64,000 nucleotides of DNA, taken from the NCBI RefSeq assembly GCF_013314895.1, contig NZ_JABTYE010000025.1, positions 1 through 64,000 on the forward strand, in the 5' to 3' direction. The DNA is from Cupriavidus gilardii. GTDB taxonomy: Bacteria; Pseudomonadota; Gammaproteobacteria; Burkholderiales; Burkholderiaceae. Numbering within the stretch: position 1 is the first letter of the stretch; the number at the start of each line of letters is the position of its first letter. The notes beneath the pieces are model-generated. The model saw only the letters and a list, made by a program, of their open reading frames with translations, was not told the origin of the DNA and made no database searches. A program made the position numbers and the translations under genes. Shown here piece by piece: positions 9,978 to 36,091 of the stretch.

Positions 9978-10090
9978 TTTGCTTAGGGGCCTTCAAGAGT
10001 TGTTTGCAATCCGCTAACCGGTCAAGCCGTGTCGCGGAAGGTTGATAAACCCGCTTAACTTCGGCATACCCGAAGAATAGTGAGCGCCCC

Positions 10091-29005: not shown

Positions 29006-30883
29006 ATGCAACAAGCGAGTGTGAATACTTTGTCCGACTCTATCGATCAAGACGTGCGCGACGCGGAGACGCCAGCCGAAGGCGCCGCGCCGCGCCGCAA
29101 GGGCCTGCGCCGCGGCCTGCGCAATCTGGTGGCCTCGCGCCGCCAGTCCGCGCAGGACCGCGACGCCAGCGAAGCCGTCGCCGGCGATGCCGGCGCGGCG
29201 GCGCAGCCCGAAGGCGGCGCCAGCGGCGCCACGGCGGCGCCCGCGCCAGGATCGCGAGGCGGACGCGGGCGGCGCGCCAAGCCGGCCGAGGGCGAGGCGC
29301 CGCGCGAGAATGCCGGCAAACGCCGCGGCCGCGGCAATGCCGGTCAGAATGCGGGCGCGAACGCCGGCCAGAACGGCGGGCAGAACGGCGGCCAGAACGG
29401 CGGCGCCCGGGCCGAGGGTGCACGGCCCGAAGGCGAAGCCGGCAACAACGGTCAACCGCGTCCGGCGGGCAAGCGCAAGGGCGGCAAGAACGCCGCACGT
29501 CCCGCCAAGGGCGCCGGCAAGTCCGCCGCGCCGACGGCCGACAAGGGCAGCGCCAGGCCGGCCGCGAAGGGCGACAAGAGCGCCGCGGCCGAGGATCTGT
29601 TCCGCTTTGTGATCTCGGGCCAGTACGACGCCGACGGCGGTGCCGCTGGCACGTCGCGCAAGGCCAAGCCGGTGCGCGAACTGTCCGCCGAGGACGATGC
29701 GCCGAAGCTGCACAAGGTGCTGGCCGAAGGCGGCCTCGGTTCGCGGCGCGAAATGGAAGAGTTGATTCTGCAGGGCCGGGTGTCCGTCAATGGCCTGCCT
29801 GCGCATATCGGGCAGCGCATCCTGCCGACCGACCAGGTCAGGGTCAACGGCAAGCTGATCCATCGCCGCGTGACCAGCAAGCCGCCGCGCGTGCTGCTGT
29901 ATCACAAGCCGGCGGGGGAGATCGTCAGCCAGTCGGATCCGGAAGGCCGTCCGACCGTGTTCGACAGCCTGCCGCGCCTGAAGACCGCCAAATGGGTCGC
30001 CGTGGGCCGGCTGGACTTCAATACCGAGGGCCTGCTGATCTTCACCACGTCCGGCGATATCGCCAACCGCTTCATGCATCCGCGCTACGGCGTCGAGCGC
30101 GAATACGCGGTGCGCACGCTGGGCGAGCTGGCCGAGGCGGATCGCCAGCGCCTGCTGCATGGCATCCAGCTCGACGATGGTCAGGCCAACTTCCTGCGCA
30201 TCGTCGACGGCGGCGGCGAAGGGGTCAACCACTGGTATCACGTGGCACTGACCGAGGGCCGCAACCGTGAAGTGCGCCGCATGTTCGAGGCGGTCGGTCT
30301 GACCGTGTCGCGGCTGATCCGTACCCGGTATGGCCAGTTCCTGCTGCCGCGCGGCCTCAAGCGAGGCCGCTGGCAGGAGCTCGAGCCCGAGGAGGTGCGT
30401 GCGCTGATGGCGGCGGTCGGGCTGAAGGCCCCGGCCAAGCAGGCCGGCGCCCCCAAGGGCGCGACCAAGGTCGGTGGCCGCAAGCAGCGCGAGCAGGCCG
30501 CGATCGAGGGCAAGCCGATGCCGACCGGCATGGACGGCCTGCCGCGCTTCAACAAGGAAGGCGGCCGAGGCGGCGCCAATCGCGGCCAGCCGGACCCGAT
30601 GCAGACGTCGATGGGCTATATCACCTCGCCGACGTTGCTGACCTCGCACACCGGCAGGTTTGCGGCCGGCGTCAGCTTGCCGCCGCAGCCCGGCATGCGC
30701 GGCCCGGCCGGCGGTGGCCGCGCTGGCGGTGCGCGCGGGGGTGCCCGCGGCGCGCAGGGGCAGGGCGGCCAGGGCCAGGGGCGTCCGCAGCGACGCGGCG
30801 GCGAGCCCAACGGCAATGTGATTCCAAAGGCTGGCAAGCCCCCCGCGCCCCGGCGCGGGCGCCCTCGCGGCGGCAGCCGCTGA
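29006..30883 (+). CDS. rluB: 23S rRNA pseudouridine synthase RluB with long basic arms
   Basis: 625 aa. An N-terminal arm of about 230 residues is low-complexity, rich in Gly, Ala, Arg, Asn and Lys ([13 protein letters not shown] at about 29370). Next is the S4 RNA-binding domain ([20 protein letters not shown]) and the RsuA-type catalytic domain with Asp in [14 protein letters not shown] (near residue 334). The C-terminus from about residue 520 is a Gly/Arg-rich arm ([19 protein letters not shown]). It isomerises U2605 (E. coli numbering) of 23S rRNA. The two disordered basic arms roughly double the usual size and probably add RNA contacts. Confidence 0.92.
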
Positions 30884-30955
30884 GGCAAGCGCGCGCCGGG
30901 CCGCGAGGCCGGACGGGGCGAAGGCTGGCACAAAGCGTGCCCCCTTCGCTCTGCT

Positions 30956-30984
30956 TTGCCTTTTGTGGCCCTAGCGCGTATAAT
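30956..30984 (+). promoter_or_regulatory. promoter of the rimP-nusA-infB operon leader
   Basis: TTGCCT, a 17-bp spacer and a consensus TATAAT (30979-30984). The start would be near 30991, about 190 nt before rimP and only about 38 nt before the terminator hairpin. Confidence 0.75.
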
Positions 30985-31028
30985 GCGAGTCTATTCAAAA
31001 AGTCATCCTCCAAGGGGATGGGCGAATG

Positions 31029-31053
31029 ATGGGCGTTCCGCCCATTTTTTTTT
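31029..31053 (+). terminator. intrinsic terminator/attenuator in the rimP-nusA-infB leader
   Basis: ATGGGCG-TTC-CGCCCAT followed by nine T. It lies between the TATAAT promoter and rimP in the same direction, so it can end most transcripts after about 60 nt. A second copy of GATGGGCG (31017-31024) just upstream could compete for the same CGCCCAT arm. Tandem ATG codons (31026, 31029) with AAGGGG upstream overlap the stem. The remaining leader to 31178 shows no gene. Confidence 0.8.
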
Positions 31054-31178
31054 GGTTCGTCCGATCGTCCGAACACGCGGAAAATCGCGATGTGGGGCTC
31101 CGCCGGAGATGACGGCAGGCAGCCGGCCATTCGCCGCGGCCTTGCCCGGTAGTTTGATGGCCATTTTTCGGAACGACA

Positions 31179-31667
31179 GTGCATCTGGCAGATTTGATCG
31201 AAACCACACTGACCGGCATGGGGTATGAGCTGGTCGAACTTGAACGCGCCCCAGGCGGGTTGCTGCGCGTCTATATCGATCAGCCTGACACCGGCATTGC
31301 CATCGAGGATTGCGAGAAGGTCAGCCGCCAGCTGACCCACGTGCTGACCGTCGAGAACGTCGATTACGAACGGCTCGAGGTCTCCTCTCCGGGACTGGAC
31401 CGTCCGCTGAAAAAACTGGCCGACTATGTTCGCTTTGCCGGCGAGGAGGCGCGCGTGACGCTGCGCCTGCCGATCGACGGCCGCAAGAACTTCGTCGGCA
31501 TCCTGCAGCCGCCCACGGGCGAGCCCGGCGCCGAGAAGATCGGCCTGGAATTCGAGGGCAAGGATGGCCCGGCGCTGCTGGAATTTACCGTATCCGATGT
31601 CGACAAGGCGCGCCTGGTGCCGGTTATCGACTTCAAAGGAAATCAGAGAAAAGGGAACAAGCAATGA
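31179..31667 (+). CDS. rimP: ribosome maturation factor RimP
   Basis: 162 aa, GTG start at 31179 (read as [14 protein letters not shown]). The N-terminal alpha/beta domain has [20 protein letters not shown] and [13 protein letters not shown], then the conserved [11 protein letters not shown], and a C-terminal SH3-like domain. It assists 30S subunit maturation. The last four bases overlap the nusA start (ATGA), the usual rimP-nusA arrangement. The gene has only a weak Shine-Dalgarno. Confidence 0.95.
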
Positions 31668-33139
31668 GCCGCGAAGTTCTGTTGCTCGTCGATGCGCTTG
31701 CGCGCGAGAAGAACGTCGACAAGGATGTGGTATTCGGTGCGCTCGAAGCGGCTCTCGCTTCGGCCACCAAGAAGCGTTTCGAGGAAGACGTCGATATCCG
31801 TGTGCACATCGATCGGGAATCCGGCGAGCACGAGACTTTCCGCCGCTGGCTGGTGGTGCCCGACGAGCAGGGCCTGCAGGAGCCGGACAAGCAGATCCTG
31901 CTGTTTGAAGCCCGCGAGCAGGACCCCAATATGGAACTCGGCGATTTCGTCGAGGAGCAGATCGAATCGGTCGAATTCGGCCGCATCGGCGCGCAGGCCG
32001 CCAAGCAGGTGATCCTGCAGAAGATCCGCGACGCCGAGCGCGAGCAGATCCTGAACGATTACCTGGAACGCGGCGAGAAGATCATGACCGGCACGGTCAA
32101 GCGCGCCGACAAGAAGGGCCTGATCGTGGAGTCCGGCCGCGTCGAGGCGTTGCTGGCACGCGACCAGATCATTCCGAAGGAAAATCTGCGTACCGGCGAC
32201 CGCGTCCGAGCGTATATCCTGAATGTGGACCGCACCGCGCGTGGCCCGCAGATCGAGCTGTCGCGCACCTCGCCGCAGTTCCTGATCAAGCTCTTCGAGA
32301 ACGAAGTGCCGGAGATGGAACAAGGCCTGCTGGAGATCAAGGCGGCCGCCCGCGACCCGGGCGTGCGCGCCAAGATCGCGGTGGTGGCGCACGACAAGCG
32401 CATCGATCCGATCGGCACCTGCGTCGGCGTGCGCGGTACCCGCGTCACCGCGGTGCGCAACGAGATCGGCGGTGAAGCGGTCGACATCGTGCTGTGGTCG
32501 GAAGATCCGGCGCAGTTCGTGATCGGCGCGCTGGCGCCGGCTCAGGTGCAGTCGATCGTCGTCGATGAAGAGAAGCACAGCATGGACGTCGTGGTCGACG
32601 AGGAAAACCTCGCCGTCGCGATCGGCCGCAGCGGACAGAACGTGCGCCTGGCGTCCGAGCTGACCGGCTGGCAGATCAACATCATGACGCAGGAAGAATC
32701 GGCACAGAAGCAGGCCGAGGAAAGCGAAGTGGTGCGGCGCCTGTTCATGTCCAAGCTGGACGTGGATCAGGAAGTGGCCGACATCCTGATCGAGGAAGGC
32801 TTCTCCTCGCTCGAGGAAGTCGCCTACGTGCCGATCAGCGAGATGATGGAAATCGAGGCCTTCGACGAGGACACCGTCAACGAGCTGCGCAATCGCGCCC
32901 GCGATGCGCTGCTGACGATGGAGCTGGCTCGCGAAGAGAAGGTCGAGGCGGTGTCGCAGGATCTGCGCTCGCTCGACGGCCTGACGCCGGAGCTGATCGG
33001 CAAGCTCGCCGAGGGCGATATCCACACGCGTGACGACCTTGCCGAACTGGCGGTCGACGAACTGGTCGAGATGACCGGGGTCAGCGAAGAAGAAGCCAAA
33101 GCGCTGATCATGAAAGCACGGGAACACTGGTTCAACTGA
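31664..33139 (+). CDS. nusA: transcription termination/antitermination factor NusA
   Basis: 491 aa from ATG 31664 ([20 protein letters not shown]). Order: N-terminal RNA polymerase-binding domain, S1 domain ([22 protein letters not shown]), KH1 and KH2 ([39 protein letters not shown]), then two acidic C-terminal repeats ([18 protein letters not shown] and [18 protein letters not shown]). The pair of C-terminal repeats is found in proteobacterial NusA. It controls pausing, termination and antitermination and often regulates its own operon; a terminator in its leader is therefore notable. Confidence 0.97.
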
Positions 33140-33214: not shown

Positions 33215-36091
33215 ATGGCAAGCACAACAGTTGCCCAACTGGCCGCAGAACTGAGTCGCAGCGCAGCTGCCCTGCTGGAACAATTGCAGGCAGCTGGGGT
33301 GGGCAAGTCCAAGCCTGAGGACGTGATCACCGAGACCGACAAGGCCAGGTTGCTGGACTACCTGAAGCGTTCGCACGGTCAGGCAGACGACGGCTCGCGC
33401 AAGAAGATCACGCTGACCAAGCGCGAAACCTCGGAGATCCGCCAGGCGGATGCAACCGGGAAGACGCGCACGGTGCAGGTCGAGGTCCGCAAGAAGCGCG
33501 TGCTCATCAAGCGCGACGAGACGCCCGCCGATGGCGCGGCCGACGGCCAGGAAGTGTCCGAGCCGGTGGTCGACCAGGCCGAGCTGGCACGCCGCGCCGA
33601 AGAGGAGCGCCGCCAGGCCGAATTGCTGGCGCGCCAGGAAGCCGAGCTGAAGGCCCGCCAGGAAGCGGCCGAACGCGAGGAAGCCGAGCGCCGCGCACGC
33701 CAGGAAGCGCTGGAGGCGGAAGAGCGCCGCCAGGCCGAGCTGGCCGCCCGGAAGGCCGAGGAAGAGGCCGCGGCGACGCGTGCCGCGAGCGAGGCCAACG
33801 AGGATTCGGATCGCAAGAAGGCCGAAGACGACAAGACGCGTCTGGCGGCCGAGCGTGCTGCCGCGCAGAAGGCCGCCGACGATGCCAAGGCCGCCGCCGA
33901 CAAGGTGCGCGCCGAGCAGGACGCGGCCCGCAAGCGCCGCGAGGCCGCCGAGGCCGAGGCCCGCGCGATCCAGCAGATGCTCAATGCGCCGGCGCGCGTG
34001 CTGAAGGCACCGTCCGAGCGCAAGGCCGAGGAAAAGAAGGCCGAGCAGAGCGGCACGCTGCACAAGCCGGTCAAGCCGGCCGGCACGGTCGAGGCCAAGA
34101 AGGACGAGAAGAAGCCCGCGGTGGCTACCACGACGGTCGACAAGAAGACCGGCAAGGTGGTCAAGGGCTCGTCGACCTGGCAGGACGAGGGTGCGCGCAA
34201 GAAGGGCGGTGGCCTGAAGACCCGCGGCGATTCGTCGGGCGGTGTCGGCGGCTGGCGCGGTGGCCCGCGCGGCCGTGGCGGCAAGCATCAGCAGGACGAC
34301 CGCAGCGGCTTCCAGGCCCCGATGGAGCCGGTGGTGCGCGAGGTCCATGTGCCCGAGACCATCTCGGTCGCGGACCTGGCTCACAAGATGGCCGTCAAGG
34401 CTTCCGAGGTCATCAAGCAGATGATGAAGCTCGGCCAGATGGTGACCATCAACCAGGTGCTGGACCAGGAGACCGCGATGATCGTGGTCGAGGAAATGGG
34501 CCACAAGGCGCTGGCGGCCAAGCTGGACGATCCGGAAGCGCTGCTGATCGAAGGCGGCGAGGAGCAGTCGGACGCCGAGCAGCTGCCGCGTCCGCCGGTG
34601 GTCACCGTGATGGGTCACGTCGACCACGGCAAGACCTCGCTGCTGGACTACATCCGCCGCACCAAGGTCGCGGCGGGCGAAGCGGGCGGCATTACGCAGC
34701 ATATCGGTGCCTACCATGTGGAAACCGATCGCGGCGTGATCACCTTCCTCGATACGCCGGGCCACGAGGCCTTCACGGCGATGCGTGCGCGCGGTGCCAA
34801 GGCGACCGATATCGTGATCCTGGTGGTGGCCGCCGATGACGGCGTGATGCCGCAGACCAAGGAGGCGATCGCCCACGCCAAGGCGGCCGGTGTGCCGATC
34901 GTGGTGGCGATCAACAAGATGGACAAGCCCGAGGCCAATCCGGACCGCGTCAAGCAGGAACTGGTGGCCGAGCAGGTCCTGCCGGAAGAGTACGGCGGCG
35001 ATTCGCCGTTCGTGCCGGTGTCGGCCAAGACCGGCGCAGGCGTCGAAGAGCTGCTGGAACAGGTGTCGCTGCAGGCCGAAATCCTGGAGCTGAAGGCACC
35101 GGTCGACGCGCCGGCCAAGGGCCTGGTCGTCGAAGCGCAGCTGGACAAGGGCAAGGGCCCGGTGGCGACGGTGCTGGTCAGCAGCGGCACGCTCAAGCGG
35201 GGCGATGTCGTGCTGGCGGGCAGCGCCTACGGCCGCGTCCGTGCGATGCTGGACGAGAACGGCAAGCCGACCAAGGAAGCAGGTCCGTCGATTCCGGTCG
35301 AGATCCAGGGCCTGTCCGAAGTGCCGGCTGCCGGCGAGGAAGTGCTGGTGCTGCCCGACGAGCGCAAGGCGCGCGAAATCGCGCTGTTCCGTCAGGGCAA
35401 GTTCCGCGACGTCAAGCTGGCCAAGCAGCAGGCGGCCAAGCTCGAGACCATGCTGGAGCAGATGGCTGAAGGCGAAGTGCAGACGCTGCCGTTGATCGTC
35501 AAGGCCGACGTGCAGGGTTCGCAGGAAGCGCTGGTGCAGTCGCTGCAGAAGCTGTCGACCGACGAAGTGCGCGTGCAGATCGTGCACGGCGCGGTGGGCG
35601 GCATCACCGAGTCCGACGTCAACCTGGCCACGGCATCGAAGGCGGTCATCATCGGCTTCAACGTGCGTGCCGACGCCGGTGCGCGCAAGCTGGCCGAGAA
35701 CAACGGCATCGACATCCGCTACTACAACATCATTTACGATGCGGTAGACGAGATCAAGGCGGCCATGTCGGGCATGCTGGCGCCGGAGAAGCGCGAAGTG
35801 ACGATCGGCCAGGTCGAGGTGCGCCAGGTGTTCCGCGTGCCGAAGATCGGCGCGGTGGCCGGCTGTATGGTCACCGACGGTTTGGTCAAGCGTGGCGCCT
35901 TCGTGCGCGTGCTGCGCAACAACGTCGTGGTGTTCTCGGGCGAACTCGATTCGCTCAAGCGCTTCAAGGACGATGTCAAGGAAGTCAAGCAGGGCTTCGA
36001 GTGCGGTCTGTCGATCAAGAACTTCAACGACGTTCAGGAAGGCGACCAGCTCGAAGTGTATGAAATCACCGAGGTCGCGCGCACGCTGTAA
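33215..36091 (+). CDS. infB: translation initiation factor IF-2
   Basis: 958 aa. The N-terminus [24 protein letters not shown] is an IF2-N motif. It is followed by a very long charged Ala/Glu/Arg helix region (residues about 110-330) and a second IF2-N domain. The GTPase G1 motif GHVDHGKT lies near residue 467, with DTPGHEAF and NKMD following. Domains II-IV bind fMet-tRNA. It places initiator tRNA on the 30S subunit. Its start is 75 bp after nusA in the same operon. Confidence 0.97.

Follow-up and report, generated by a model that had tools for sequence, protein, structure and literature searches.

In a published list of genes regulated by transcription attenuation, rimP holds first place, and the leader that precedes it has been described as the most ubiquitous attenuator (Naville & Gautheret, 2010; PMC2965389). 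The same paper described a terminator stem of the form GGGC...GCCC that is conserved ahead of rimP-nusA-infB and named NusA as the best candidate, leaving recognition of the conserved stem sequence as a hypothesis (PMC2965389). In Streptococcus agalactiae, short and long RNAs arising from one start were reported from RNA-seq, with termination 31 nt downstream (PMC4448216). NusA of Bacillus subtilis is described in a review as autoregulated through NusA-stimulated termination in its own leader, and the same review links NusA dependence above all to hairpins that are weak or U-runs that are interrupted (PMC12288461). A role for NusA in regulating its own operon has also been stated for Escherichia coli (PMC6511841). 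Among the open-licence literature matches listed, none treated the locus in Cupriavidus, Ralstonia, or Burkholderia as a rimP leader; the main texts of RNA-seq studies of C. metallidurans (PMC7563307) and B. cenocepacia (PMC4603805) are silent on rimP and nusA, and the main text of a review on Burkholderia small RNAs has nothing on either gene (PMC10987360).

Here, we describe the region upstream of rimP in a 64,000-nt stretch of Cupriavidus gilardii DNA (contig NZ_JABTYE010000025.1, positions 1 to 64,000), referred to as the window. Judged by its sequence, the element found there is a further example of the rimP-leader attenuator published in 2010. The features of the locus are as follows:

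29006 to 30883, + strand: rluB, by domain match, followed by a 295-nt gap before rimP.
30956 to 30984, + strand: sigma70-like promoter TTGCCT-17-TATAAT (TTGCCT at 30956-30961, TATAAT at 30979-30984).
31003 to 31021, + strand: HP1, the 5' hairpin of the leader RNA, TCATCCTC-CAA-GGGGATGG; -8.9 kcal/mol for the segment.
31017 to 31024, + strand: upstream copy of GATGGGCG, an alternative 5' arm, read from the sequence.
31018 to 31045, + strand: alternative hairpin ATGGGCGAATG-loop-CGTTC-CGCCCAT; -13.4 kcal/mol for the segment alone, with 3' arm and U-run in common with the terminator.
31028 to 31035, + strand: proximal copy of GATGGGCG, read from the sequence.
31029 to 31053, + strand: intrinsic terminator ATGGGCG-TTC-CGCCCAT plus nine T, the rimP-leader hairpin (stem 31029-31045, loop TTC 31036-31038, CGCCCAT 31039-31045, nine T 31045-31053); -10.1 kcal/mol for the hairpin.
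31179 to 31667, + strand: rimP, first gene of the operon, with a GTG start and Pfam matches to RimP_N and the RimP C-terminal domain.
31664 to 33139, + strand: nusA, with Pfam matches to NusA_N, S1, KH_5, and HHH_5.
33215 to 36091, + strand: the next frame after nusA, which we take to be infB from a reading of the open reading frame.

The likeness to the general rimP leader extends to its place before rimP-nusA-infB, in what would be the 5' untranslated region if the region is transcribed as we suppose; to a G-rich 5' arm and a C-rich 3' arm forming GGGC...GCCC ahead of a U-run; to a distance of 125 nt between terminator and rimP, within the published range of 4-130; and to the lack of a clear antiterminator (PMC2965389). 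What sets the window leader apart is an additional 5' hairpin and a duplicated 5' arm. A terminator before the nusA operon is likewise common to the window, the NusA-controlled leader of B. subtilis, and the E. coli metY-nusA-infB operon; E. coli, however, has metY upstream, whereas no tRNA gene precedes the leader in the window. A cluster of tRNA-Gly, tRNA-Cys, and tRNA-Leu genes upstream of rimP on the same strand was seen in three of 60 stretches from the order (L138, L163, and L179), which come from two other families.

The Rfam model of the gammaproteobacterial rimP leader, RF01770, resembles the window leader in its downstream hairpin, UGGGC...GCCC with a U-run before rimP, which in E. 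coli K-12 is CUGGGCUUUAGGCCC followed by seven U just before rimP, within the RF01770 match. In contrast, the first hairpin of RF01770, present in E. coli, has no visible counterpart in the window, and the model (cut-off 47 bits) gave no match at the window leader up to an E value of 10; five weak matches lie elsewhere in the genome, the best at 21.4 bits. The whole leader weakly matched RF02883 (BcKCsr2; 17.2 bits, E 0.12, cut-off 40), a family that we ruled out: it scores well in 15 of 60 genomes, and the ten best loci have no rimP, nusA, or rluB match. The gene next to RF02883 presumably encodes a bcp-type peroxiredoxin, which it resembles by eye. A 25-nt match elsewhere in the same genome (L002) falls in a run of short repeats beside a frame that looks chemotaxis-like by eye and was taken as chance. 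Elsewhere in the window, at 10004-10086, there is a SucA RNA motif (RF01070; 87.5 bits, well over its cut-off of 40).

The promoter at 30956-30984 is the sole promoter-like site that a consensus scan found between 30000 and 32500 on both strands, with 0.3 expected in shuffled sequence. From it, transcription would start near 30990. Such coordinates as the initial annotation had given for the leader elements proved right on a check of the sequence; its further statement that the terminator follows TATAAT within about 40 nt fits the putative start, which the stem follows by about 39 nt, and falls short for TATAAT itself, the end of which lies 45 nt before the stem. All 38 Cupriavidus-group leaders (the window and L003-L039) have a promoter-like site no more than 110 nt upstream of the terminator, and a sigma70-type scan found none between terminator and rimP in any of the 38. 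It follows that in these genomes a rimP transcript from a recognizable sigma70 promoter, or from read-through out of rluB, must cross the terminator. Across 41 aligned leaders, the -10 box varies in a single column, three Ralstonia-type rows having TACAAT, and a crude -10 pattern, counted with no control made, stands 12-33 nt ahead of GGG in 44 of 79 genomes of the order. It has to be considered that the terminator may mainly end an upstream unit containing rluB, especially in view of the fact that the scan finds no other + strand terminator-like site between rluB and rimP; the conserved -10 box, which stands between rluB and the terminator and 43-47 nt before the stem in all 41 Cupriavidus and Ralstonia-type leaders, makes this the least probable of the readings considered here.

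With regard to the strains, the RimP protein of the window is 99% identical to those of C. cauae and C. gilardii records (L003, L004). A record named C. gilardii J11 (L005) has a RimP 96% identical to that of the window and a leader sequence unlike that of the C. gilardii record L004, and its species name may be doubtful.

A terminator scan of 30000-32500 yielded two terminator-like sites, the leader terminator included, versus 1.7 expected, which is not beyond chance, and the case for the terminator therefore rests on conservation. Up to 600 nt upstream of rimP were compared in the window and 80 named loci (81 leaders). The hairpin and T-run are kept in 80 of them; the sole exception, L043 (C. 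basilensis OR16), has unrelated sequence before the T-run near position 2929 and matches RimP only over residues 25-162, and it looks like an assembly fault or join. The T-run has nine T in 76 of the 80 leaders, ten in L042 and L077, six in L049, and five in L016 (Cupriavidus sp. UYMMa02A, 1589-1684), the last being either real or a sequencing fault. Of 31 genomes searched, G000 among them, 26 contain the pattern TGGGC(N2-9)GCCCATTTTT, 23 of these exactly once, and its reversed control occurs in none of the 31; at least one match (G066) is on a contig other than that of rimP. Of 20 further genomes from the family of the window, 18 carry the relaxed terminator pattern; by eye, the remaining two have ATGGGC...GCCCAT with a longer loop (L267) and a different hairpin (L268). 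Covariation in the terminator amounts to one pair with two-sided changes (three cells), and shuffles reach all of the scores. A candidate second terminator at about 31160-31169 (ATGGCCATTTTT) was set aside, as by eye its T-run is broken in many relatives (ATTACTCGG and others).

Of 160 genomes searched at the level of the order, 155 had a rimP match. Upstream DNA was taken from 80 of these, which represent 37 families, include two genomes from the family of the window, and were selected in part for having sufficient contig left. In 13 listed plus-strand places rimP starts no more than about 430 nt into the contig, and there may be repeated sequence upstream there. GGGC(N2-9)GCCC followed by T precedes rimP in 73 of the 80 genomes versus 1 of 800 mononucleotide shuffles. 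The relaxed terminator core is present in all of them except G110 (79 of 80); by comparison, it turns up in 30 of 1600 mononucleotide shuffles and, on the opposite strand, in 10 of 80 genomes. The strict form, TGGGC...GCCCA plus T, occurs in 62 of 80 genomes and in none of 1600 shuffles, and on the opposite strand only 2 of 80 have it. The sequences thus indicate that the stem sequence itself, beyond mere pairing, is largely kept across the order, and this suggests recognition. A looser pattern, GGGC(N2-9)GCCCNTTTTT, is unspecific, matching in 107 of 120 genomes of the phylum, in many of them several times. The U-run is more variable: 25 of 79 order genomes have at least seven consecutive T, and in the other 54 the first stretch of T is shorter, in many cases with A or G and then further T behind it. 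The terminated leader before rimP-nusA that the initial annotation had claimed is upheld by this order-wide conservation, together with the finding that no promoter-like site follows the terminator in the 38 Cupriavidus-group leaders.

We favor, with moderate confidence, a transcription attenuator of the rimP-leader kind with NusA feedback as the best explanation. RNA polymerase would start near 30990 and make a leader of about 60 nt, most polymerases would stop at the hairpin and its U-run, the last base of which is 31053, and only those that read through would transcribe rimP-nusA-infB. NusA, itself a product of the operon, aids hairpin formation in the RNA exit channel, so that high NusA would lead to more termination and less NusA synthesis. 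Termination in vivo and its extent are what the sequence leads us to infer, and the part of NusA as sensor is assigned by analogy. The feedback idea, which the initial annotation had put forward, corresponds to a model already in print, where it has been suggested or described in E. coli, B. subtilis, and S. agalactiae; that annotation had, in effect, rediscovered a known kind of control from the sequence alone. Several points count against the attenuator model. Firstly, the uninterrupted run of nine U and the GC-rich stem look like a strong terminator, and NusA dependence is tied to weak hairpins or interrupted U-runs (PMC12288461). Secondly, no antiterminator is visible that would provide sufficient read-through. 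Thirdly, the two transcriptome papers on related species are silent on rimP and nusA in their main texts. A fixed damper, in which the terminator removes a constant share of the transcripts from a strong promoter with no regulation, would suit the finding of neither an antiterminator nor a sensor domain and the ending of both folds at the same U-run. However, the strict form of the stem is kept over the order far beyond shuffles, and NusA feedback has been stated for E. coli (PMC6511841) and B. subtilis (PMC12288461), and we regard a fixed damper as unlikely.

The same locus and hairpin are also matched by the Rfam family RF02420 (Bp1_162, Bp1_Cand612_SIPHT), which is modeled on the opposite strand. 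The match covers 30997-31052 of the window on the minus strand and was found at a relaxed threshold (34.1 bits, below the cut-off of 50). Among 60 genomes of the bacterial family, 25 have a match, in one place each, and 18 of these exceed the cut-off; rimP adjoins the match on the opposite strand at all 25 loci (L093-L117), with rluB on the other side in 24. The source paper presented RF02420 as a Burkholderia candidate sRNA on the minus strand of chromosome 1, using RT-PCR primed with oligo(dT) (PMC3521395), an experiment that in our judgment does not settle the strand. It could be a true antisense RNA; the T-run and the promoter sit on the rimP strand and not on that of RF02420, and the family is probably a strand-reversed annotation, built on the complementary strand of the rimP leader. 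RF02420 has been described as an sRNA (PMC3521395) and the rimP leader is listed among attenuator-derived RNAs bound by ProQ (PMC5391140), both of which would fit a terminated RNA of about 60 nt that acts in trans as a small RNA. Yet the leader upstream of the hairpin differs between genera and the RF02420 match is to the opposite strand, so that we consider a trans-acting role quite improbable.

It was initially proposed that the upstream copy of GATGGGCG competes for the CGCCCAT arm and thereby relieves termination. The upstream copy (31017) lies partly within the 3' arm of HP1 (31003-31021), a hairpin missing from that account, and may be used in two structures: in HP1 with TCATCCTC, which leaves the proximal terminator free, or in pairing with CGCCCAT. 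The latter gives a longer hairpin with the same end base and U-run, and because this hairpin directly abuts the U-run it should also terminate and would be no antiterminator. In folds computed on the leader up to the U-run, no alternative pairing that removes the terminator hairpin was visible, both competing folds ending at the same U-run. The ensemble prediction for the window gives 0.997 to the proximal and 0.003 to the upstream pairing, and relief of termination by the upstream copy is not supported. Pairing of GGGCGAA (31020-31026) with TTCGTCC (31056-31062) was also rejected: 95.1% of its cells are paired, with no two-sided change, it is partly broken in Ralstonia types, and TTCGTCC is transcribed after the U-run, so that the pairing cannot act as an antiterminator.

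The duplication that the initial annotation had pointed out is well kept in near relatives, with exceptions. All 38 Cupriavidus-group leaders carry TGGGCG no more than 45 nt before the stem, whereas dinucleotide shuffling of these segments produced it in 79 of 7600 cases. Of 15 leaders from the Ralstonia-type genus (the genus of G024, named for its likeness to L040-L042), 14 retain the upstream GATGGGCG. The copy is destroyed in the remaining one, L242, and absent in G004, the single genome examined from its genus. In the Burkholderia group, 18 of 39 leaders have GGGCG no more than 90 nt before the stem, a count made with no control, and an upstream GGGCG is therefore not confined to Cupriavidus and Ralstonia.

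Sequence and folding predictions make a two-state device from the duplicated arm suggestive only. In such a device, peculiar to Cupriavidus and Ralstonia, one 3' arm and U-run would serve two 5' arms with HP1 as the chooser: HP1 would hold the upstream GATGGGCG and leave the weaker proximal hairpin, and opening of HP1 would allow the longer and stronger one. The segment energies in the window (-10.1 versus -13.4 kcal/mol) are in agreement with this, as is the fact that 99.5% of cells are paired in the alternative hairpin while the inner proximal pair is non-standard in 28 of 35 distinct leaders. The upstream pairing is also predicted above 0.3 in six of 41 leaders (L005, L011, L034, and L040-L042), and two of the three Ralstonia types have values of 0.83-0.86. 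Against it, the alternative hairpin shows no two-sided change and shuffles reach its score; HP1, paired in 93.6% of cells over the 35 distinct leaders, has one-sided changes only, with a score that shuffles also reach, and is weak in Ralstonia types. Considering in addition the very low upstream pairing predicted in the window and the loss of the upstream copy in L242, we hold two terminator strengths to be unlikely.

The leader also contains AUG codons, initially noted behind AAGGGG and overlapping the stem, which might open a leader ORF. A Shine-Dalgarno-like sequence ends 8 nt ahead of the first AUG of ATGATG in the window, and ATGATG is kept in all 38 Cupriavidus-group leaders; translation starting at these AUGs, behind GGGG or GAGG, might shield the hairpin, cause read-through, and couple the operon to initiation capacity. 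However, no conserved leader peptide or short ORF with regulatory codons was found across the 41 leaders. The encoded peptides are alike only where hairpin and U-run force the likeness, and beyond these both peptides and stops diverge, so that a leader ORF is not supported; frame lengths span 14 to at least 89 codons, Ralstonia types use different reading frames, and L042 lacks the first ATG. Moreover, low initiation would, by inference, lower IF2 further under this scheme, and we think it very unlikely that the AUGs control read-through.

Taken at this strength, the sampled Burkholderiales, Cupriavidus included, join the bacteria that seem to gate rimP-nusA by a sequence-conserved terminator, and the Rfam sRNA family RF02420 is probably drawn on the wrong strand. 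The extra 5' hairpin and second 5' arm in Cupriavidus and Ralstonia make up a lineage-specific elaboration on a known kind of attenuator; if the two terminator strengths were true, control would be by terminator strength instead of by an antiterminator. The occurrence of both interrupted and perfect U-runs provides natural test cases for what, if anything, recognizes the conserved stem.
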